64,000 bases of DNA from Mesorhizobium sp. ZC-5 (GTDB lineage Bacteria; Pseudomonadota; Alphaproteobacteria; Rhizobiales; Rhizobiaceae), in NCBI RefSeq assembly GCF_025753855.1, contig NZ_JAOWPT010000002.1, positions 806,001-870,000 of the forward strand. Direction: 5' to 3'. Under the pieces are notes generated by a model that had not been told where the DNA came from, did not search any database, and saw only the letters and a program-made list of their open reading frames with translations. This document shows positions 4,186-56,733 of this stretch, piece after piece (positions within the stretch are counted from its first letter, which is position 1; each line of letters begins with the position of its first letter). Position numbers and translations under genes: made by a program.

Positions 4186-5321
4186 GCACCCCCTACGCAA
4201 AACTGCCGGGCTGGGCCGACTACGGGCTGATCCCGCTCATCAATCTGCTGGTCGCCTTCATCATGGCCGGCCTGGTGGTGCTTCTGGTCGGAGAAAATCC
4301 GCTGCGTGCCGCCGTCATCCTGGTCGACGGCGCTTTCGGCAGCGGCCAGAACATAGCCTACACGCTCTACTACGCGACCAACTTCATCTTCACCGGCCTT
4401 GCCGTCGCGGTGGCGTTTCATGCTGGCCTCTTCAACATCGGCGGGGAGGGGCAGGCCTATATTGCCGGCCTCGGCGTCTCGCTGGTGGCGCTCGCCTTCG
4501 ACAGCGTGCTGCCGTGGTGGTTGACCTTTCCATTAGCAATCGCCGGCGCCGCTCTTGTCGGCGCGTTGTGGGCGCTGATTCCGGCCTATCTGCAGGCCAA
4601 GCGCGGCTCGCACATCGTCATCACTACCATCATGTTCAACTTCATCGCCGCCTCGGTGATGGTCTACATGCTGGTCAACGTGCTGAAGCCCGCTGCCGAG
4701 CAGGCCCCGCAGACCCGGCAGTTCCTCGATGGCGGCCAACTGCCGAAGCTCAATTTCATTCTGGAGGCGCTCGGCCTGTCGGTGCGTTCGGCGCCGCTCA
4801 ACATCTCCTTCCTGCTTGCGCTGGTGATGGCGGTGTTCGTCTGGGCGCTGATCTGGCGCACCAGGCTCGGCTACGAGATCCGCACCTTCGGCTTCAGCCC
4901 GAAGGCGGCGCGCTATGCCGGCATTTCGGAAAGCCGCATCACCATCATTGCCATGATGATCTCCGGCGGCCTTGCCGGCATGATGGCGCTCAATCCCATC
5001 ATGGGCGACCAGCACCACATGGCGCTCGACTTCGTCGCCGGCGCCGGCTTCGTCGGCATCGCGGTGGCGCTGATGGGCCGTTCGCACCCGATCGGCATCG
5101 TGCCCGCCGCGATCCTGTTCGGCATGCTCTACCAGGGCGGCGCCGAACTCGCCTTCGAGATGCCCAACATCAGCCGCGACATGATCGTCATCATCCAGGG
5201 ACTGGTCATCCTGTTCGCCGGGGCGCTCGAGCATATGTTCCGCCCGACAATCCAGACATTGTTTGCCTCGCTCAGCCCGCGCTCCATGGGGATCCCGGCC
5301 GCCAAGACCGGAGGCGCTTGA
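4182..5321 (+). CDS. Nucleoside/BMP-type ABC transporter permease 1
   Basis: This 379-residue integral membrane protein has about eight to ten hydrophobic segments and belongs to the branched-chain/simple-sugar permease superfamily. It shows the conserved GLFNIGGEGQ loop and SPKAARYAGIS segment characteristic of the YufP/NupP nucleoside permeases. Its ATG overlaps the ATPase gene stop by four bases, and its TGA is one base before the next permease ATG, so all three are co-translated. It forms the inner-membrane channel together with permease 2. Substrate assignment is inferred from the salvage enzymes downstream. Confidence 0.88.
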   Translation: MSTPYAKLPGWADYGLIPLINLLVAFIMAGLVVLLVGENPLRAAVILVDGAFGSGQNIAYTLYYATNFIFTGLAVAVAFHAGLFNIGGEGQAYIAGLGVSLVALAFDSVLPWWLTFPLAIAGAALVGALWALIPAYLQAKRGSHIVITTIMFNFIAASVMVYMLVNVLKPAAEQAPQTRQFLDGGQLPKLNFILEALGLSVRSAPLNISFLLALVMAVFVWALIWRTRLGYEIRTFGFSPKAARYAGISESRITIIAMMISGGLAGMMALNPIMGDQHHMALDFVAGAGFVGIAVALMGRSHPIGIVPAAILFGMLYQGGAELAFEMPNISRDMIVIIQGLVILFAGALEHMFRPTIQTLFASLSPRSMGIPAAKTGGA

Positions 5322-5322
5322 G

Positions 5323-6285
5323 ATGGATCTGCTCGTCCAGCTTCTCGATGCCACCATCCGCGTATCGGTGCCGTTGCTGCTTGCCTGCCTCGCCGGCCTC
5401 TATTCGGAGCGCGCCGGCATCTTCGACATCGGCCTCGAAGGTAAGATGCTGGCTGGCGCCTTTGCCGGCGCCTCGGCCGCTGCGGTCAGCGGCTCGGCAT
5501 GGGTGGGGCTTCTCGCCGCCGTGGCGATTGCCGTCTTGCTGGCGCTGGTGCACGGTTTCGCCTCCATCACCCATCGCGGCAACCAGATCGTTTCGGGCGT
5601 CGCCATCAATTTCATCGCCGCAGGCTCGACGATCATCCTTGGCCAGGCGTGGTTCCGCCAGGGCGGCCGTACCCCGGCCCTTTCCGGCGATGCGCGTTTC
5701 AGCGCCATCGAATTGCCCGGCGCCGAAGCGCTGCGCGATGTGCCGGTCATCGGCACCATCTATTCCGACCTCATCTCCGGCCATTCGCTGCTGGTCTACG
5801 TCGCCTTCCTGATGGTGCCGTTCACCTGGTGGGTGCTGTTCCGCACCCGCTTTGGCCTGCGGCTTCGCGCCGTCGGAGAAAACCCAGCCGCCGTCGACAC
5901 CGCCGGCATCTCGGTGACCTGGCTGCGCTATCGCGCCGTAATCTGTACCGGCATCCTGACCGGCCTTGCCGGGGCATACCTGTCGGTCGCCCAGAACGCG
6001 GGCTTCGTCAAGGACATGACCGCCGGCAAGGGGTATATCGCGCTCGCCGCCCTGATCTTTGCCAAGTGGAAACCGGTGCCGGCGATGTTCGCCTGCCTGT
6101 TGTTCGGCTTCCTCGACGCGGCTTCGATCCGCTTCCAGGGCATGCCGTGGCCGGTCATCGGCAAGGTGCCGGTGCAGCTGATCAACGCGCTGCCGTTCAT
6201 CCTGACCATCATCCTTCTCGCCGGTTTCATCGGCAAGGCGATCCCGCCGCGCGCCGGCGGCGTGCCTTACGTGAAGGAACGGTGA
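5323..6285 (+). CDS. Nucleoside/BMP-type ABC transporter permease 2
   Basis: The 320-residue protein is a multi-pass permease of the YufQ/NupQ type. The family loop is recognisable as AGIFDIGLEGKMLAGAF near the N terminus, with LRAVGENPAAVDTAGIS in the middle and GKGYIALAALIFAKW toward the end. The start at 5323 follows the preceding stop at once; an upstream in-frame ATG at 5263 lies inside the first permease gene and adds an unrelated N terminus. The stop codon is followed within five bases by a heptamer repeat array (6290-6404) that separates this gene from cdd. It pairs with permease 1 in the inner membrane. Confidence 0.88.
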   Translation: MDLLVQLLDATIRVSVPLLLACLAGLYSERAGIFDIGLEGKMLAGAFAGASAAAVSGSAWVGLLAAVAIAVLLALVHGFASITHRGNQIVSGVAINFIAAGSTIILGQAWFRQGGRTPALSGDARFSAIELPGAEALRDVPVIGTIYSDLISGHSLLVYVAFLMVPFTWWVLFRTRFGLRLRAVGENPAAVDTAGISVTWLRYRAVICTGILTGLAGAYLSVAQNAGFVKDMTAGKGYIALAALIFAKWKPVPAMFACLLFGFLDAASIRFQGMPWPVIGKVPVQLINALPFILTIILLAGFIGKAIPPRAGGVPYVKER

Positions 6286-6289
6286 GATG

Positions 6290-6404
6290 CGGCAGTCGGC
6301 AGTCGGCAGTCGGCAGTCGGATGAAGTTGTCCGTCTACGAAAACCGACGTTAACGAGACGTCGCTCGCATTTCCCGACTGCCGACTGCCGATTGCCGACT
6401 GCCG
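6290..6404. repeat. Heptamer tandem repeats in inverted arrangement (hairpin), copy 1
   Basis: The left arm at 6290-6320 holds four full copies of CGGCAGT plus CGG. The right arm at 6374-6404 holds CCG plus four copies of ACTGCCG, the exact reverse complement, with one base change (ATTGCCG at 6391-6397). The arms could form a stem of about 31 bp around a 53-bp loop. The element fills most of the gap between the second permease stop (6285) and the cdd start (6414), inside what reads as one operon. The structure is seen directly. A role in mRNA stability, partial termination or slippage is only inferred. Confidence 0.85.
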
Positions 6405-6413
6405 GAGTCCCCC

Positions 6414-6806
6414 ATGTCCCATGATCTCTTCCTCGCGGCTCGAGAGGCCATGGCGAAATCCTATGCGCCCTATTCGAAATTCCCGGTGGGTGCAGCGATC
6501 CGCACCGAGGACGGCCGTATTTTCACTGGCGCCAATATCGAAATTGCTTCCTACCCGGAAGGCTGGTGCGCCGAAACCACGGCTCTCGGCCACTACATCA
6601 TGGCCGGCGGCGGCAAGATCGCCGAGATCGCCGTCGTTGCCGAACGCATGGCGCGGATCACGCCCTGTGGCGGTTGCCGCCAGCGATTGGCCGAATTCGC
6701 GCGGCCTGAAGCCAGGCTGCATCTTTGCGACAATGACGGCATCGTCGAGACCGTCACCATGGGCGAGATGCTGCCCTACGGATTCCAGGGCGAGATGCTG
6801 AAATGA
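6414..6806 (+). CDS. cdd: Cytidine deaminase
   Basis: This 130-residue enzyme deaminates cytidine and deoxycytidine to uridine and deoxyuridine in the cytoplasm, using one zinc ion. The zinc/catalytic motifs are visible as WCAETTAL (Cys plus catalytic Glu) and TPCGGCRQ (two Cys), with YSKFPVGAAI and TGANIEIASYPEGWCAE in the expected order. Length fits the short tetrameric class. The ORF overlaps the next gene by four bases (ATGA). It lies just after the heptamer-repeat hairpin and belongs to the salvage block with PNP and deoA. Confidence 0.93.
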   Translation: MSHDLFLAAREAMAKSYAPYSKFPVGAAIRTEDGRIFTGANIEIASYPEGWCAETTALGHYIMAGGGKIAEIAVVAERMARITPCGGCRQRLAEFARPEARLHLCDNDGIVETVTMGEMLPYGFQGEMLK

Positions 6807-28075: not shown

Positions 28076-29182
28076 CTATGATTTCAACTCAAACCCGCCG
28101 TCCACCAGAACCTCGCCATTGACGATCAGCTCGACGCGGTGAAACCCGGCATTGTGCTTGCGCGTGGTGAAGTCGCGGATGGTCTGGCTGATCGACAGAT
28201 CGGTGCGGCCTCGCGGTTCAAGCGCGATCTCCTTCAGCTTGAACACCTTGCGCGATGCCGCGCCGCTTTTCTTGACGTAGTGGATGGCGTAGTCGACGAC
28301 CAGTTTTTGCGACGTCTCGCCGGTGGACACGATGCCCGCCTTGAGGGTGAGCCTATCGCCCAGATCGAGCGCCGCCGGCGTCACCGAAAATGCTTCGACG
28401 GTCACCTGGGCCTTGCCGGTGGTGCCGATCAGCGCCAGCGCCCGCGGTTCGCCTTTCTTGATGAGGGTCCTAAGCGCATGGCGCACGATCCAGGCGGTGT
28501 GCTTGTCGTCCATGTCCCATGCAGATACCCGCTCGATCGCCCGGTCGGGATGGTCCTTGGTGATGTCGTTGAGGTGGTTGGCGACCGATTTGCGCACGTA
28601 AAGGCTCGGGTCGCCCTTCAGCGCTTCGAGGATAGGTGCGGTGGGCGAGGGATCGGCAATCAGGTTCTTGAGGTTGAACGACCACGGCAGCCGCGGCCGC
28701 GAACCTTCGCTGGCCAGCCGGCGCACGTGCTCGTTTTCGTCCTCGGCCCAGCCGCGCATCACACCGAGCGTGCGGTCGAAATCGCGCGCCAGGAAAGGCC
28801 GGATGGCGAATTCCGCCGAACCGAAACGCGTGAAGAACGCCAGCGCCTGCATCGAGCGGTCGAAATGGTCCTGCCCGTAGAGCGCCACATATTCCGGCAG
28901 CGTGATCGACGCGAAGCCGTGGTTGATGCGCGGCGCCAGCGCCGAAAGGATGTCGACTGCCTTGCCGAAGTCCGCCGGCAATGTCGCGTGCAGGCTGGTC
29001 GCCGTCTGCCGCATGCGCTGCATGATGCCGAGCGCATCGAGATTGTCGGTGGCGAGCGCCATGAAGCGCCCGGCATCGAAGGCCGGCGCGAGGGCGGCCG
29101 TTTCGGCCGCGATGTGGGCGAGCCGCGTCCGGTCGAAGATTTCCTTCAGTGCCGGTGCGGCTTGCGCCGAACTGTCCGCCAT
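28076..29182 (-). CDS. AlkC-like DNA alkylation repair protein (HEAT repeats plus Ig-like domain)
   Basis: The 368-residue protein has an AlkD/AlkC-type array of helical HEAT-like repeats to about residue 255, including DENEHVRRLASEGSRPRLPW and YVRKSVANHLNDITKDHPD, the conserved DNA-facing region. A beta-rich C-terminal domain (about 270-368, KLVVDYAIHYVKKSG) follows, as in AlkC, which has an Ig-like domain. AlkC enzymes excise N3-alkylpurines without flipping the base. The catalytic Asp/Glu were not mapped. It is monocistronic and cytoplasmic. Confidence 0.85.
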   Translation of the reverse strand: MADSSAQAAPALKEIFDRTRLAHIAAETAALAPAFDAGRFMALATDNLDALGIMQRMRQTATSLHATLPADFGKAVDILSALAPRINHGFASITLPEYVALYGQDHFDRSMQALAFFTRFGSAEFAIRPFLARDFDRTLGVMRGWAEDENEHVRRLASEGSRPRLPWSFNLKNLIADPSPTAPILEALKGDPSLYVRKSVANHLNDITKDHPDRAIERVSAWDMDDKHTAWIVRHALRTLIKKGEPRALALIGTTGKAQVTVEAFSVTPAALDLGDRLTLKAGIVSTGETSQKLVVDYAIHYVKKSGAASRKVFKLKEIALEPRGRTDLSISQTIRDFTTRKHNAGFHRVELIVNGEVLVDGGFELKS

Positions 29183-44318: not shown

Positions 44319-44681
44319 ATGCCGCTCTGCATTCTTGCCGCCGGCAAGACGACCGTGCTTGCGGCAGCCGCGTTCACGCTGTCGTGGACGCATTCGGTCG
44401 AGAAGACCCGCTGGGAGGAGGATTGGCGCATCACGCCGGCCGGTCTTCAAATAGTCGAGGCACGCGTCAAGGGTTCGGGAGCCGGCATGGAGCCACCCGA
44501 GGATGCAGTGCTCAGGGACGGTTGGTGGACCTATGTGCCCAAAATCCCGCCGCGCCCGTCGCTGACGCTTGCCGCGTCCGGCGCCACCGGAGCCGGCTGG
44601 TCGGTCTGCGGCGGCGGATCCTGCGTCACCGTCGGCGAGGAATCCTCCGATCCGGTCGTGCTGCGCGCCTGCGACGGCTGA
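44319..44681 (+). CDS. DUF1850 protein of the TAXI TRAP cluster
   Basis: This 120-residue protein is a DUF1850 member, recognised by FTLSWTHSVEKTRWEEDW and VKGSGAGMEPPEDAVLRDGWW. DUF1850 genes commonly accompany TAXI-type TRAP transporters, as here. Its ATG follows directly after the outer inverted repeat of the palindromic element, and the only Shine-Dalgarno-like run (GGAGGGGG, 44304-44311) is part of that repeat. The C-terminal 50 codons overlap the convergent DUF4166 gene on the other strand. A short N-terminal hydrophobic stretch suggests membrane or periplasmic location. Function unknown. Confidence 0.83.
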   Translation: MPLCILAAGKTTVLAAAAFTLSWTHSVEKTRWEEDWRITPAGLQIVEARVKGSGAGMEPPEDAVLRDGWWTYVPKIPPRPSLTLAASGATGAGWSVCGGGSCVTVGEESSDPVVLRACDG

Positions 44682-46345
44682 CCGTTGCCGGGCTCCAGCC
44701 AGCCGCGATAACGCACCACGCGGCCGATCCCCGGCATCGATATCGCCACATCGAAATTGAACCGTCCTTTCGCGTCGACGAACTCGACGGTTTCGCTTTT
44801 CGGCATCAGCCAACGTGGCATCGGAACGCCAAGCGCCGTCCAGCTTTCGACCGGCCAGAATACCTTGCCCTCGTGGGCGTTGATCCGCAGCATGAAGCTG
44901 AACGGCCCGAACCGTTCGCGCAGCACGCCTGCCGCGTCGCCGTCGCGGCGCGACAGATGCGAAACGAAGCGGCGGCGGCCGAAGCACCGCGTCCAGCGCT
45001 CGCCTGCGACGGTTCTTTCCTTGGTCACCTCGACGGCCACGGCATTGGCAGCCGGCGGAAACCCGAACAGCGCCCCCACCAGCTGCGATAAAAAGCCCTG
45101 ACCGCGTTCGACCGATGCCGTGCCTGCGAAATGATCGATGTCGTGGATTTCGGCCAATCGCCGCCAGGCTTCGGGCAGGCGGCCGAAATCCTGAACCAGC
45201 ACCCGTTCCATCAGTGGCGGCGCGGCGGTCTCCTCCTGTCCGCAGTGGATGGCGAACGGCGAAAATCCGGCCTCGATCTCCGCCAGGCTCAGCACGCCGA
45301 CGGCTGGTGCCGCACCCGGCGCGATGCCGGAATTGCCGCCCAGCAGACGCCTCGCCAGCAGGAAGGCCGGAGTCGGCGGGATTTCCGGGCCGTCGCCGGC
45401 TTCCGCGATGACTGTCCATGACCGCTCGACGGCGCGCCCTTCCTGGTCGCGGCCCGCGGCGATCACCACCATGCCGCCGCGATCGGAGCCGAAGGGTTCC
45501 AGCCGGTCGGCGATCCATTTCAGCAAGGGCGCCAGTCCGCCGACGGAGCGTGCCAGGCCGAACCGCACCGGCCACGACAGCAGCCACAGCCCTATATGCA
45601 TGATTTTAAGCTCCAGTCCGGCATGGAACTGCACCGAGCGTGCCTTGTAGCGCTCGGGAAAGATCAGGAGGTCCGGAGCGCCGATCGGGCTCGCCAGCCG
45701 CGCGCTCACCGGAGCCGCGCCATGGACCGACAGCGTCAATCGTTTGATGTCGCCCCAGGCTGGTTCACTCATCCATCGTCCGCCGCGCCAGATGTTGAGT
45801 GGCCGGCCGACCTGCGCGACGATGCCGCGAACCACAGAAAGGCCGCGCGGCGCCCGGTTGCCGGGCAGGATCGTCGAGTCCACGCTGCTCACTGAGACGA
45901 GCGGCCGGACCAGTTCGTCGAGTGCTGCGGCGGAAATCGCCGGTATGCTGCTCGCTCCGGAGAGTACCGACAGGCCGGCGGTCCGCGCCACGGCGTCGAG
46001 TTCGCCGATGCCCGCGACGAAAGACGCGTCGTCGGCAAGGTCGATGTAGTGCGCGCCGGCCGCGATCGCCGCCTTGGCAACGCGGTAGGGGTCGTCGCCA
46101 TAATTCTGAAATGGCCCAGCCGCATCGACGACGATCGCCGGCTTCAGGCCCGTGAGCGCTTCAACCAAGCCGGCATCGCGGTCCAGCCGCAAAGGTGTGC
46201 CGCCGAATTTCCGGCAATGCGCCTCGGCGCGTTGCTGTGAGCGTCCGGCCACCAGCACCTCGGCTGCCGTCTCGCGTACCAGCCGGCGCGCCAGCCTGCC
46301 GCCGAACACGCCATAGCCGCCAAGGATCAGGACGCGCTCAGCCAA
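44531..46345 (-). CDS. Saccharopine dehydrogenase-like NADP-binding protein with DUF4166 domain
   Basis: The 604-residue protein starts with a Rossmann nucleotide-binding motif (VLILGGYGVFGGRLARRL) of the saccharopine dehydrogenase-like family, followed by a middle region with VVDAAGPFQNYG. The C-terminal DUF4166 domain runs from about residue 390 to 555 and ends near VRYRGWLEP. Beyond that, about 50 residues of Ser/Pro/Thr-rich tail look unconserved and are encoded antisense to DUF1850. It overlaps the upstream DCC gene by eight bases. The reaction is unknown; relatives act on lipids or amino acids. Confidence 0.82.
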   Translation of the reverse strand: MAERVLILGGYGVFGGRLARRLVRETAAEVLVAGRSQQRAEAHCRKFGGTPLRLDRDAGLVEALTGLKPAIVVDAAGPFQNYGDDPYRVAKAAIAAGAHYIDLADDASFVAGIGELDAVARTAGLSVLSGASSIPAISAAALDELVRPLVSVSSVDSTILPGNRAPRGLSVVRGIVAQVGRPLNIWRGGRWMSEPAWGDIKRLTLSVHGAAPVSARLASPIGAPDLLIFPERYKARSVQFHAGLELKIMHIGLWLLSWPVRFGLARSVGGLAPLLKWIADRLEPFGSDRGGMVVIAAGRDQEGRAVERSWTVIAEAGDGPEIPPTPAFLLARRLLGGNSGIAPGAAPAVGVLSLAEIEAGFSPFAIHCGQEETAAPPLMERVLVQDFGRLPEAWRRLAEIHDIDHFAGTASVERGQGFLSQLVGALFGFPPAANAVAVEVTKERTVAGERWTRCFGRRRFVSHLSRRDGDAAGVLRERFGPFSFMLRINAHEGKVFWPVESWTALGVPMPRWLMPKSETVEFVDAKGRFNFDVAISMPGIGRVVRYRGWLEPGNGQPSQARSTTGSEDSSPTVTQDPPPQTDQPAPVAPDAASVSDGRGGILGT

Positions 46346-52915: not shown

Positions 52916-54052
52916 CTAATCCAGTGTGCGCCTGAACCGCAGCAGCGCCAGGCCCGCAAACAACGCCACGAACAGCACCAGCCAGCCGATTTCCACGGCA
53001 ACCGCGGAAAATTCCGCGCCCTTCAGCATCACGGCCCGGATGATGCGCAGGAAATGTGTCAGCGGCAGGATTTCACCGAAGATTTGCGCCCAGCCCGGCA
53101 TACCGCGGTAGGGGAACATGAAACCCGACAGCAGGATCGACGGCAGGAAGAAGAAGAAGGTGAGTTGCAACGCCTGCATCTGGGTGCGTGCCATAGTCGA
53201 GATCGTGTAGCCGAGCAGCACGAGCGCCAGCACGAAGATCAGGATCGCCGACAAAAGCAACGACAGCGAACCGGTGAACGGCACGGCGAACAGACCCTTC
53301 GCCGCGACCAGCACGACCGCCACCTGCACCGCGCCGACCACGAGGTAGGGCAGCACCTTGCCCATCATGATCTCCAGAGGGCTGGCCGGCATGGCGAGCA
53401 GGTTCTCCATCGTGCCGCGCTCGGTTTCCCGCGTCAGCGCGATCGAGGTCATCATCACCATCGTCATCTGCAGGATGACGCCGAGCAGGCCGGGCACGAT
53501 GTTGTATTGCGAAATGCCCTCCGGGTTGTAGCGGCGGTGCACGACCACCTGCAACTGGCTCTTGGCCGCCTCGGCCGCCGCCTGCTGCATGCCTTGTTCG
53601 CGCAGCAGCGCCTGGCTCGCGACCGTTCCCAGCGTCGACACGGCGCCGCTGGAGGCCGAAGGGTCGGTTGCGTCGGCTTCGATCAGGATCTGCGGGTTGT
53701 CGCCGCGTTCCACGCGGCGGGCGAAATCGGAAGGTATGGTCACCACGAAGGCGACGGTGCCGTTGGCCATCAGTTTTTCGGCTTCCTCGGCGCTCACCGC
53801 CACGTGGTCGAAACGGTAGTAGTCGGTCATCTGCAGCGCCGACACGATGGCGCGCGTGTAGTGGTCGTTGCTGGTGGCGACGAGCGCCGCCGGCAGGCTC
53901 TTCGGGTCGCTGTTGATGGCATAGCCGAACAGCAGCAATTGCATCAGCGGCACCCCCAGCATCATGGCGAAGGTGATGCGGTCGCGCCGCATCTGGATAA
54001 ATTCCTTCATCAGGAGCGCGCCGAGCCGGGCAAAGGAAAACACCGTGTTCAT
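52916..54052 (-). CDS. ABC-2 type transporter permease (YbhS/YbhR-like)
   Basis: The 378-residue permease starts MNTVFSFARLGALLMKEFIQMRRDRIT and has one N-terminal helix, a large extracytoplasmic domain (about 50-170) and five C-terminal helices, as in YbhS/YbhR. The ABC-2 motif TERGTMENLLAMPASPLEIMMGK (in part RGTMENLLAMP) is clear. Its ATG overlaps the ATPase stop by four bases. The long open frame upstream to 54820 is antisense-like extension over the ATPase gene and not real. It likely works as a homodimer with the ATPase next to it. Confidence 0.9.
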   Translation of the reverse strand: MNTVFSFARLGALLMKEFIQMRRDRITFAMMLGVPLMQLLLFGYAINSDPKSLPAALVATSNDHYTRAIVSALQMTDYYRFDHVAVSAEEAEKLMANGTVAFVVTIPSDFARRVERGDNPQILIEADATDPSASSGAVSTLGTVASQALLREQGMQQAAAEAAKSQLQVVVHRRYNPEGISQYNIVPGLLGVILQMTMVMMTSIALTRETERGTMENLLAMPASPLEIMMGKVLPYLVVGAVQVAVVLVAAKGLFAVPFTGSLSLLLSAILIFVLALVLLGYTISTMARTQMQALQLTFFFFLPSILLSGFMFPYRGMPGWAQIFGEILPLTHFLRIIRAVMLKGAEFSAVAVEIGWLVLFVALFAGLALLRFRRTLD

Positions 54053-54966
54053 GCCATGTTGTCCTTCGAGCCGGCCATGAACTGGATGAAGACGTCCTCC
54101 AGGCTGGTTTCGCCGGGCTGCACGGTGATGTCCTTGCGTTTCTTCAGTTCTGCCAGCGAGGCGGTCAGGGCCTTCTTGTCCGAGCCGACCACATGCAAGG
54201 TGGTGCCGAACGGCGCCACCTGCTCGACGCCGGGCTTGCCCTCCAGTTCGTCGGCGATCTCGTTCAGCTTCGGGCCGCTGATCACGAAGGTGGTCAGCCC
54301 GGCGTTCCTGATCACCTCGTCGACGGTCCCGGACGCCAGCATCTTGCCGTAGGAGATGTAGCTGATGCGGTGGCAGCGCTCCGCCTCGTCCATGTAGTGG
54401 GTCGACACCAGCACCGTCAGCCCGCCGCGTGCCAGCCGGTGGATCTCGTCCCAGAACTCGCGCCGCGCCTTGGGGTCGACGCCTGCCGTCGGCTCGTCGA
54501 GCAGCAGCAGTTTCGGCTTGTGCATGATGCAGGCGGCGAGCGCCAGCCGCTGCTTCCAGCCGCCCGAAAGCGTACCGGCAAGCTGGTCCTTGCGCGTCGT
54601 CAGGCCGAGTTCCTCCAGGGTGCGTGCGACATGCTCGCCAACCGGCTTCAGCCGGTAGAGGCGCGCCACGAATTCGAGGTTCTCCTCGATCGTCAGATCC
54701 TCGTAGAACGAGAACTTCTGCGTCATGTAGCCGACTTCGCGCTTGATCTTCAGGCTCTCGGTGCGAAGGTTGTAGCCCAGCACCTCGCCGTCGCCCTCGT
54801 CGGGTGTCAGAAGCCCGCACATGATGCGGATCGTCGTCGTCTTGCCGGAGCCGTTCGGCCCGAGGAAACCGACGATCTCGCCCTCGGCGACCGTCATCGT
54901 CACATGGTCGACGACAGTTTTGGTGCCGAAACGCTTCACCAGGTTTTTGACGTCGATCGCGTTCAT
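54049..54966 (-). CDS. ABC exporter ATP-binding protein (YbhF-like, single domain)
   Basis: The 305-residue ATPase has Walker A GPNGSGKTTT, the Q-loop GYMTQKFSFYEDLT, the signature LSGGWKQRLALAAC, Walker B LLLLDEPTAGVDP and the H-loop VSTHYMDEAERC. It has one ABC domain, in contrast to E. coli YbhF, which has two. The ATG at 54966 starts the conserved MNAIDVKNLVKRFG; the upstream in-frame ATG at 55068 lies in the heptamer-repeat region. It is placed between the HlyD-like gene and the permease in one operon. Confidence 0.93.
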   Translation of the reverse strand: MNAIDVKNLVKRFGTKTVVDHVTMTVAEGEIVGFLGPNGSGKTTTIRIMCGLLTPDEGDGEVLGYNLRTESLKIKREVGYMTQKFSFYEDLTIEENLEFVARLYRLKPVGEHVARTLEELGLTTRKDQLAGTLSGGWKQRLALAACIMHKPKLLLLDEPTAGVDPKARREFWDEIHRLARGGLTVLVSTHYMDEAERCHRISYISYGKMLASGTVDEVIRNAGLTTFVISGPKLNEIADELEGKPGVEQVAPFGTTLHVVGSDKKALTASLAELKKRKDITVQPGETSLEDVFIQFMAGSKDNMA

Positions 54967-54986: not shown

Positions 54987-55099
54987 CGAGTGAGTAGTGA
55001 GTAGTGAATAGTGAATAGGGGAGGATGCCGTTGACATGTCGTTCGTCCGGTACATAGCCACTACTCACTACTCACTACTCACTACTCACTACTCACTAC
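54987..55099. repeat. Heptamer tandem repeats in inverted arrangement (hairpin), copy 2
   Basis: The left arm (54987-55018) reads CGAGTGA, GTAGTGA, GTAGTGA, ATAGTGA and a partial unit. The right arm (55058-55099) holds CCACTAC and five exact copies of TCACTAC, the reverse complement of GTAGTGA. About 40 bp separate the arms. The element lies between the HlyD-like gene and the ATPase gene of one operon and includes the stop codon of the HlyD-like gene. Its layout matches the element at 6290-6404 while the unit sequence differs. Confidence 0.85.
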
Positions 55100-56038
55100 T
55101 GCCAAATCCACATCCACGATCTGCCCCGGCTGCAGTGGCGTCGCGTCGCCTTCCGGTCGCGCCTCGACGAGGTAGACGAGCTTCTGGCGCGTCTCCAGCG
55201 AGTAGATCACCGGCGGCGTGAACTCGGGATCTGGCGAAACATAGCTGACCCGCGCTGTCAGGCCCGGAGGGCAGCCGTCGCAGCGCACGTCGAGCAGCGC
55301 CCCGACCTTCACCGCCGAGAAGCTGGCTTCCGGTACATAGACCTTCAGCTTCACCGCGCCGTCTGGCAGCATCGAGATCACGGGCGCGGACGGACCGGCG
55401 ATATCGCCGGGATCGCGGATGACGTCGTCGATACGGCCGGGCGAGGGCGCCGTGAGCACCCGCTTGGAAAGCTGCCATTCCGCCTTTTCGAGCGCGGCCT
55501 TCGCCTGCTCGACCTGGTTTTCGGCCGCCTTGATGGTTTCGGCGCGCGCCGGCAGCCGGGCCACGGCAAGGTTTGCTTTCGCCTGGCCGACAGAAGCATC
55601 CGCCTGTTCGGCGGCGGTCGCCGCTTTGTCGTATTCGGCCTGGGTCGACGTTCCCTTGATGAGCAGATCGTTTAGCCGGCTCTGCACGCGGTCGGCCTCG
55701 GTCTTCTGTGCCATCGCCGATTTCAGCGCCGCCTCCAGCACCGCGATCTCTTCCGGGCGCTTGCCGATCTTCAGGTCGGCGAGTTGCGCCTCTGCCTGCG
55801 CCACCGCCGATTTCGCCTGGGCGACGGCAATCCGCGCGTCGGCCGTCTCCAGCGTCACCAACGGCTGGCCGGCTTCGACGCGATCACCGCGCCGCACCGA
55901 TACGGTTTCGACCTGTGCCACCTCGATCGGCGCCAGAAGCACATATTCGCCCTCGACATAACCCACGGCCAGCGGCGCGGCGGGTCCGCAGGCCGAAAAC
56001 AGCCAGGCGGCGAACGGGATGGCGCAGAACATGCTCAT
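55082..56038 (-). CDS. HlyD-family membrane fusion protein (YbhG-like), probable lipoprotein
   Basis: The 318-residue adaptor starts MSMFCAIPFAAWLFSACGPAAP, a short signal with a lipobox-like SAC (Cys17). The biotinyl-lipoyl half YVLLAPIEVAQVETVSVRRGDRV (in part), a long coiled-coil hairpin (about 75-190, many Ala/Glu/Lys) and beta-barrel strands follow. It bridges the ABC-2 pump to an outer-membrane channel. The last residues AVVSSE and the stop codon are encoded by the heptamer repeat array (55082-55099). Its start overlaps the TetR gene stop by four bases. Confidence 0.88.
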   Translation of the reverse strand: MSMFCAIPFAAWLFSACGPAAPLAVGYVEGEYVLLAPIEVAQVETVSVRRGDRVEAGQPLVTLETADARIAVAQAKSAVAQAEAQLADLKIGKRPEEIAVLEAALKSAMAQKTEADRVQSRLNDLLIKGTSTQAEYDKAATAAEQADASVGQAKANLAVARLPARAETIKAAENQVEQAKAALEKAEWQLSKRVLTAPSPGRIDDVIRDPGDIAGPSAPVISMLPDGAVKLKVYVPEASFSAVKVGALLDVRCDGCPPGLTARVSYVSPDPEFTPPVIYSLETRQKLVYLVEARPEGDATPLQPGQIVDVDLAVVSSE

Positions 56039-56733
56039 GATGGTTGGCCCTTCCGGCCTTCGAGAACCGCGACGAGGTTGCTTCTGGCGACATCGAGAAT
56101 GTCCGACGCCTGTTGCGGACCGATCTCGGTCCAGCCCATGCGTCGCCGCACCGCTTCGCGGCCGATACGGAAATAGACGACCTGTCCGATCAGTGTGAAC
56201 ACGGTGAGTTTGGTGCGGTCGCTTTCGGCCGGCTCGCCCGTCGCCTGCTCCCACAGCATGCAGAGGCGCTTGTGCACTGGCTCGAACACGCCGCTGTAGA
56301 TGCGGTCGAGCGCTGCTGTCGGCTGCGAGAGTTCGCGCAACACGAACTGGACAACCTCGCCCGCCTCGGGCGAAGCCACGATGAAGGTGATCATCCGCTC
56401 CAGTGCGCCGATGAGTTGTGCCCGCGCGGCGTCCGGCTCGAGCCGCGCCGGAATTGTCGCGTCGAGATTGCCCATCGCCTGGCCGGCGATCGCCTGGATG
56501 GTCTGCACGATGTGGTCGGCAGCGGCGAGCCGCAGTCCGTCCTTGCCCCGGAAATGATAAGCGATGCTGCCGATGTTGGCATTGGCGAGCGCCGCGATGT
56601 CGCGCGTCGAGGTGCCGTCGAACCCCTTGGATCCGAACAGCGTCAGGGCCGCGCGGATCAGTGCGAGGCGGGTCATGTCCGCCGAGGACGGCGGGGTCTG
56701 GACGGTGGGCGCGGGATCGAGTTTCTTGATCAT
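56035..56733 (-). CDS. TetR-family regulator (CecR/YbiH-like)
   Basis: The 232-residue repressor has an N-terminal TetR HTH (RLALIRAALTLFGSKGFDGTST, then RDIAALANANIGSIAYHFRGKDGL) and a C-terminal ligand domain that looks like the CecR/CerR type. Its gene order with the HlyD-like, ATPase and permease genes matches E. coli cecR-ybhGFSR, where CecR senses antibiotics such as chloramphenicol and cefoperazone. The ATG at 56733 is chosen over 56769. A perfect palindrome lies just upstream. Confidence 0.92.
   Translation of the reverse strand: MIKKLDPAPTVQTPPSSADMTRLALIRAALTLFGSKGFDGTSTRDIAALANANIGSIAYHFRGKDGLRLAAADHIVQTIQAIAGQAMGNLDATIPARLEPDAARAQLIGALERMITFIVASPEAGEVVQFVLRELSQPTAALDRIYSGVFEPVHKRLCMLWEQATGEPAESDRTKLTVFTLIGQVVYFRIGREAVRRRMGWTEIGPQQASDILDVARSNLVAVLEGRKGQPS

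Follow-up and report, generated by a model that had tools for sequence, protein, structure and literature searches.

The gap between an ABC transporter permease gene and the cytidine deaminase gene cdd holds a long inverted repeat built of tandem heptamers, which raises the question of what such a structure is and how it came to lie there. The locus was studied within a window of 64,000 nucleotides, this being the whole stretch of DNA analysed (G000:C2:806001-870000), from a 6.34-Mb draft genome that we here call the source genome (G000), which to judge from its relatives is probably a Rhizobiaceae-like alphaproteobacterium, and that was compared with two congeners, G147 and G059. The features at the locus, named hairpin 1, are as follows.

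5263–6285, plus strand: ABC transporter permease gene (BPD_transp_2), upstream of hairpin 1
6290–6320, no strand: 5′ arm of hairpin 1, CGGCAGT × 4.4, 100% match
6321–6373, no strand: loop of hairpin 1, 53 bp
6374–6404, no strand: 3′ arm of hairpin 1, inverse heptamers × 4.4, with one variant unit
6414–6806, plus strand: cytidine deaminase gene (cdd), downstream of hairpin 1

The repeat coordinates and the predicted fold confirmed the preliminary description of this locus, in which four CGGCAGT units and four inverse units with one mismatch, 53 bp apart, form a stem of 31 bp (RNA MFE −84 kcal/mol, z −11.7 versus shuffles). The permease stop codon lies 4 bp ahead of the hairpin and cdd starts 9 bp past it. 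By eye, a GAAAT/ATTTC motif was often seen at the inner end of an arm in hairpin loops of the source genome, for example at window positions 6366–6373, in G000:C8:26518-26696 and in G000:C9:222251-222336.

An ordinary intrinsic terminator with an unusual stem is one conceivable reading, and another hairpin of the source genome (C6:110132-110208) does have a loop with a terminator-like palindrome followed by T's. However, the letters following the 3′ arm of hairpin 1 are GGAGTCCCCC, with no T run, and the stem is built of tandem units and far longer than that of a terminator. A terminator was thus rejected for hairpin 1 because of the missing T run, as the preliminary description had anticipated, and for the hairpins as a whole we find this reading hardly credible.

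A second locus of like plan had been proposed in the window, and it was indeed found as inverted heptamer arms (54989–55018 and 55059–55100) with a spacer of 40 bp, here named hairpin 2.

54049–54966, minus strand: ABC-transporter ATPase-like gene, so named from its sequence, with the start taken at an internal ATG; it follows hairpin 2 in the minus-strand direction
54989–55018, no strand: 5′ arm of hairpin 2, AGTGAGT with GAATAGT variants
55019–55058, no strand: loop of hairpin 2, 40 bp
55059–55100, no strand: 3′ arm of hairpin 2, CACTACT × 6
55082–56254, minus strand: HlyD-like protein gene, likewise named from its sequence; it precedes hairpin 2 in the minus-strand direction

The fold of hairpin 2 gave z-scores of −6.8 and −7.6 versus shuffles, one for each strand. 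The claim that the two loci have different units held in that the units do differ, but both can be written as forms of a single loose motif, NRRYAGT, and are thus not unrelated. The HlyD-like open reading frame has its stop codon within the heptad arm at 55059–55100, so that its last residues are encoded by the repeat.

Inverted heptamer arrays were found in the window beyond chance. The window has two inverted period-7 pairs and none at any other period from 4 to 12, and each of 100 dinucleotide shuffles of the window gave zero inverted period-7 pairs, whereby a chance repeat was ruled out. Within 244 kb of the same contig (C2) there were three period-7 pairs and none at periods 5, 6 or 8–11, with only the two pairs of the window remaining at a stricter score. 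A degenerate three-unit pattern, RRYRGTNRRYRGTNRRYRGT, for which the reversed pattern served as control, matched 50 times in the source genome against 0 for the control and 43 times against 11 in G147; in G059 there was no excess, with 10 matches against 12.

Using a fixed detector on the examined stretches, we found nine hairpins in the source genome and eight in G147, in agreement with the proposal of a recurring hairpin class having a unit that varies by locus. To the nine should be added a pair at C5:418357-418829 that carries a gene of the S23 family. The first arm was more than half purine in all 17 detected hairpins, many arms start within about 20 nt of the end of a gene, and the arm copy number at the loci of the source genome ranged from 2 to about 12 units. 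The hairpins were mostly in operon-type gaps, again as proposed, with co-directional neighbours for six of nine in the source genome (three convergent) and for five of eight in G147 (two convergent, one divergent), as assigned by a heuristic based on ORFs, which for hairpin 2 plainly put the neighbour in the wrong place. Co-directional gaps and very stable stems could also be expected of host RNA-processing or message-stabilising signals selected in operon gaps. We hold that explanation to be very improbable, since presence, unit and loop change at one gap between congeners, and 27 of 31 loci upstream of cdd, counting the source genome and its relatives, have no such pair.

Hairpin 1 was absent from both congeners searched (G147 and G059). 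Between aligned flanks, 126 bp in the source genome stand against 8 bp in G147; the gap in G059 measures 18 bp. Judged from these alignments, hairpin 1 is a clean insertion relative to the two congeners; no target-site duplication was evident in that comparison, in which the short gaps are not alignable base by base. Hairpin 2 has a counterpart in G147 with another unit and an unrelated loop. At this site, as well as at C8:26 and C4:115, the units differ between the source genome and G147 and no homology of the loops was seen (p 0.15, 0.21 and 0.72 at the three sites), whereas at C3:67.6 both unit and loop are conserved (loop homology p 0.001). At two further shared sites, on C13, the units were seen by eye to differ. 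Because the loops gave no sign of homology at the three tested sites with differing units and are homologous at the one tested same-unit site, replacement of the whole hairpin is the more likely process, and the hairpins seem to turn over in this way. An in-place change of unit between hairpin 2 and its G147 counterpart was rejected from the same comparison of loops. It is from presence and absence together with whole-hairpin replacement that we infer the hairpins to be mobile. As a separate observation, the source-genome hairpin at G000:C3:67599-67708 is matched in G147 by two hairpins lying about 2.7 kb apart (G147:C8:134611-137467), as though a segment could be exchanged at hairpins.

The S23-bearing pair lies outside the window on another contig (C5). 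Its arms are 395 bp apart, and these enclose a gene for a four-helix-bundle protein that is the only match to PF05635 (23S_rRNA_IVP; S23, Avd-like) in the source genome. Its inverted arms are of the GAGTAGT type, the heptamer of hairpin 2. The unit of hairpin 1 (GGCAGT) does not match them, which speaks against hairpin 1 belonging to an S23-based family. No ORF of S23 length was present in the hairpin 1 loop (6321–6373).

We found PF05635 in 62 of 199 genomes of the family. Inverted period-7 arrays spanned the gene, at a first threshold, in 20 of 31 loci (30 from the family plus the one in the source genome), and spanning inverted pairs of period 7 or 8 were seen in 26 of the 30 family loci using a laxer score. 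Among plasmids, the S23 protein matched 21 records, 20 of which were cyanobacterial. At all 12 plasmid loci examined, 7- or 8-mer arrays flanked the gene on both sides, being inverted at ten as scored by the detector and at one more (L095) by eye; L094, with arrays in one direction, and L101, with both orientations, count against an S23-based family. A scan of named genomes gave 80 best S23 loci from many phyla, which are best matches rather than random samples. Inverted 7- or 8-mer arrays spanned the gene in 59 of these (51 of period 7 and 8 of period 8), while 18 armless loci and three having period-6 pairs only speak against the association. Counting those of the 80 with full flanks, 55 of 75 were positive, with no pairs at periods 5 and 9–12 and three at period 6. 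Anchors shifted by 800–1000 bp at the named loci gave 0, 1, 0 and 0 positives of 73–74; in the smaller sets the shifted anchors gave 0–1 of 28–30 for the family and 0–2 of 12 for plasmids, which we counted as contrary evidence. Spanning pairs were found at none of 30 control cdd loci and in 2 of 1600 shuffled flanks. Arms were also found at 22 of 34 S23 loci in IMG/VR, some of these being near-copies, and S23 gave no match in an annotated phage collection.

Pooling 121 S23 loci, with two at contig ends (L073 and L082) left out, 95 had arms. The left and right units of a locus had a mean distance of 0.87, versus 2.88 for permuted partners (n = 85), and the first arm was more than half purine in 90 of the 95. 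A grouping of the S23 loci with 8-mer arrays in one clade, which takes a single change on the tree, had weak support (54/74) and was not adopted. A 50-kb Gemmatirosa stretch also had inverted pairs of period 9 and of period 10, a further point against the S23-based reading. The possibility that armless S23 loci are intervening sequences (IVSs) of rRNA genes was rejected, with 18 of 18 armless and two of three period-6 loci being rRNA-negative in Rfam; rRNA was likewise found in none of 40 of the best 80 named loci analysed with Rfam. Five Bacteroidota loci (L187, L188, L193, L206 and L212) have S23 genes without detectable arms, and these are possibly genes that have lost the element form.

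These results bear upon the idea of the preliminary description that the hairpins are made by slippage plus inversion. In such a local origin, slippage would expand a heptamer and a template switch at replication would copy the array in inverted form, with no mobile element taking part. Template switching in hairpins is established, the arm copy number varies between the loci of the source genome and the two arms of one locus are more alike than arms of other loci. Still, 7 and 8 are the only periods seen repeatedly around S23 genes, the purine-rich polarity is kept as given above, the arms flank the S23 gene far beyond chance, and where units differ at a shared site the loops were different as well in all three cases tested. 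We therefore do not favour slippage plus inversion, given also the clean insertion of hairpin 1, and regard a local origin as improbable. Slippage within arms is likely because copy number varies, but it need not be the source of the hairpins.

A direct view of how hairpins and S23 genes relate was obtained from the gap between glnA and ordL in 30 chosen genomes, six of which were picked for carrying S23 there. Full S23 elements were present in ten of the 30 (all by tblastn, eight with detected inverted arms) and S23 remnants in two (G098, between arms, by tblastn; G007, by eye). Seven had a bare hairpin (G000, G059, G064, G070 and G147 by the detector, G030 and G031 by eye), one had an arm stub and ten had something else or a short gap. 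Thus, on these comparisons, what occupies this one gap varies by genome from a full element through a remnant to a bare hairpin, and at the level of sequence no other evidence speaks as well for bare hairpins and S23 elements being one family. By eye, G080 and G060 were seen to have toxin-antitoxin-like pairs in the same gap (L237–L266), and G086 a REP-like palindrome; the gap is as such a reused insertion site. The cdd gap would appear to be reused too, because three of the 30 other loci upstream of cdd (L109, L111 and L128), in three more distant relatives, have an inverted pair with another unit.

We could also compare the S23 protein with the arm unit at a single host site. Clustering by flanking ORFs placed 33 of 47 alphaproteobacterial S23 loci in the gap between nuoC and nuoD, with NuoD found in all 33 and S23 co-directional with nuoD in all 33, and 12 canonical units occurred among the 32 period-7 loci there. 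For these 32, distances between S23 proteins were correlated with those between units (r 0.43, p 0.0002; partial r 0.43) and weakly with those between NuoD proteins (r 0.18, p 0.007), and NuoD and unit showed no correlation (r 0.05, p 0.26). The correlation between S23 and unit was 0.38 over all period-7 loci (n = 80), 0.48 in the family (n = 21) and 0.25 for named loci among the best 80 (n = 51). As read from these distances, S23 and unit co-vary at one site independently of host phylogeny, and S23 travels with its arms, to a fair degree uncoupled from the host. The co-variation agrees with S23 recognising the unit but does not prove this, since it could reflect co-travel.

Units outside the resident element were compared in a similar manner. 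GTGAATG was found in 6 of 6 genomes with a matching resident element versus 12 of 32 others; for AGCGAAT the counts were 5 of 7 versus 11 of 31, and for AGTGAGT 2 of 5 versus 3 of 33. Hairpin units tracked the unit of the resident S23 element with a permutation p of 0.0005 in 18 genomes, a value based on overlapping match counts and uncorrected for phylogeny. Counting against a family defined by S23, the PF05635-negative genome G008 had 46 GTGAATG matches and G160 had 53 AGCGAAT matches without a matching S23. On the Nostoc edaphicum plasmid L353, an S23 element with AGGGAAC arms (28580–29049) lies about 15 kb from an S23-less AGGGAAC inverted pair (44527–44697). Another Nostoc stretch had no inverted pair.

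Taken as a whole, the sequences support a common family in that S23 genes are armed, S23-less hairpins with like units coexist with them and hairpin 1 occupies a gap of which congeners have a short version. We consider it probable that the hairpins of the window are S23-less members, non-autonomous or decayed, of a family of small elements found across bacteria. A competing view is that the hairpins are mobile or spreading with S23 as a mere rider in heptad hairpins that already existed, movement depending on a different agent, for example a reverse transcriptase or a Y1 (RAYT-like) transposase. Hairpins do outnumber S23 genes (nine detected versus one in the source genome), some genomes are rich in units without a matching S23, and S23 resembles Avd, which is an accessory protein. 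Set against this are the co-variation of S23 with the unit at one host site and the fact that most sampled S23 genes sit in such hairpins, and we look upon the rider view as rather unlikely, albeit one to be reckoned with.

Several known systems resemble parts of the proposed family. Some IVSs, such as those of Salmonella, are not known to carry an S23 ORF. In an S23-bearing 23S rRNA IVS, according to the passages of PMC4990558 that describe it, an S23p ORF lies within a 28-bp terminal inverted-repeat stem excised by RNase III, tandem heptamers of varying number are found in the 5′ arm upstream of that ORF, and one strain has a large deletion in it; those passages give the S23/IVP proteins no known function. 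The structure of an S23/IVP protein has been solved (2GSC). The S23 elements studied here share with this IVS an S23-family ORF within a terminal inverted-repeat stem, the tandem heptamers and a sporadic occurrence. The window hairpins likewise have terminal inverted repeats with long stems, as described above for both, and tandem heptamers in the arms. They lack an S23 ORF between the arms, however, having loops of 53 and 40 bp, although the C5 element of the source genome has one. Whereas IVSs lie in rRNA genes, the window hairpins are located between protein genes, and they were therefore not filed as IVSs.

The short tandemly repeated repetitive (STRR) heptamers of cyanobacteria also lie in tandem between genes and are described as direct repeats; the cyanobacterial plasmid S23 genes found here are flanked by heptamer arrays. 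REPIN-RAYT systems combine many short palindromic units with one or a few coding copies, and REPINs are described in the relevant part of PMC8049555. RAYT is a tyrosine transposase, which S23 is not, and instead of REP sequences the arms found here consist of heptads in tandem. Tandem GGGAATC heptamers of Xanthomonas, as given in the section of PMC4692102 concerning them, occur in convergent pairs, mostly intergenic, with 70 and 75 cases in two genomes; that section mentions no S23 link, and the unit is other than those of the window. The exact Xanthomonas heptamer pattern was found in none of 398 Pseudomonadota genomes. S23 is distantly homologous to Avd (bAvd E 2e-5, PHROG Avd E 2.1e-5), as is also noted in the pertinent part of PMC10053308, and the S23 protein of the family locus L087 scored 25.5 bits against bAvd, below the Pfam cut-off of 40. 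From this distant relation to Avd, a nucleic-acid-binding role of S23 on its own arms is a natural guess.

A full element would accordingly comprise a purine-rich tandem array of 7- or 8-mers, a gene for S23/IVP as an Avd-related four-helix bundle, and the inverse array. It may be co-transcribed with the operon whose gap hosts it, whereupon the long double-stranded stem could be cut by RNase III, as reported for the S23-bearing 23S rRNA IVS. Such cutting should keep the neighbouring messages usable, so that insertion just past a stop codon would be tolerated. An S23 oligomer might recognise the heptad arrays in either RNA or DNA form, and S23 would presumably be required in cis or in trans for spread, a role comparable to the one proposed for RAYT proteins with REPINs; slippage would thereafter alter the copy number of the arms. 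More tentatively, and with somewhat less than even confidence, we propose a bacteria-wide class of mobile element without a recognisable transposase, in which an S23 (Avd-like) oligomer reads a tandem code of 7–8 nt in its own stem-loop arms, transfers or copies the element to gaps directly behind stop codons and sustains S23-less hairpins in trans; the S23 rRNA IVSs, the cyanobacterial and xanthomonad heptamers and the window hairpins would then be forms of one thing.

Inverted heptamer pairs (PMC4692102) and heptamers in an IVS (PMC4990558) are already in print, as far as the cited parts of these papers go. Among the top-ranked results of the open-access literature searched, no link between S23 and flanking heptads was found beyond the IVS paper, and new in relation to that literature are the general association of S23 with heptads, the S23-less population alongside, the same-site series and the co-variation of S23 with the unit. 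Intergenic heptamer repeats of several phyla have so far been without a source, and the finding of S23 and heptads together, with unit and protein co-varying, offers a testable hypothesis for both. It may tie together several unexplained bacterial repeats and hints at a type of mobile element lacking a recognisable transposase.

There is also a warning in these results, in that S23 genes inside CRISPR-Cas, nuo or conjugation operons may be riders and not parts of those systems. The 23S rRNA IVP is named among CRISPR-linked domains in a legend of PMC10910872, and such links of S23 to CRISPR-Cas may reflect riders. On three of the cyanobacterial plasmids, S23 genes with arrays on both sides were located inside CRISPR-Cas operons (L095, 1495–1863; L100, 1489–1845; L101, 1501–1860), twice between cas6 and cas4 and once between cas10 and cmr3.
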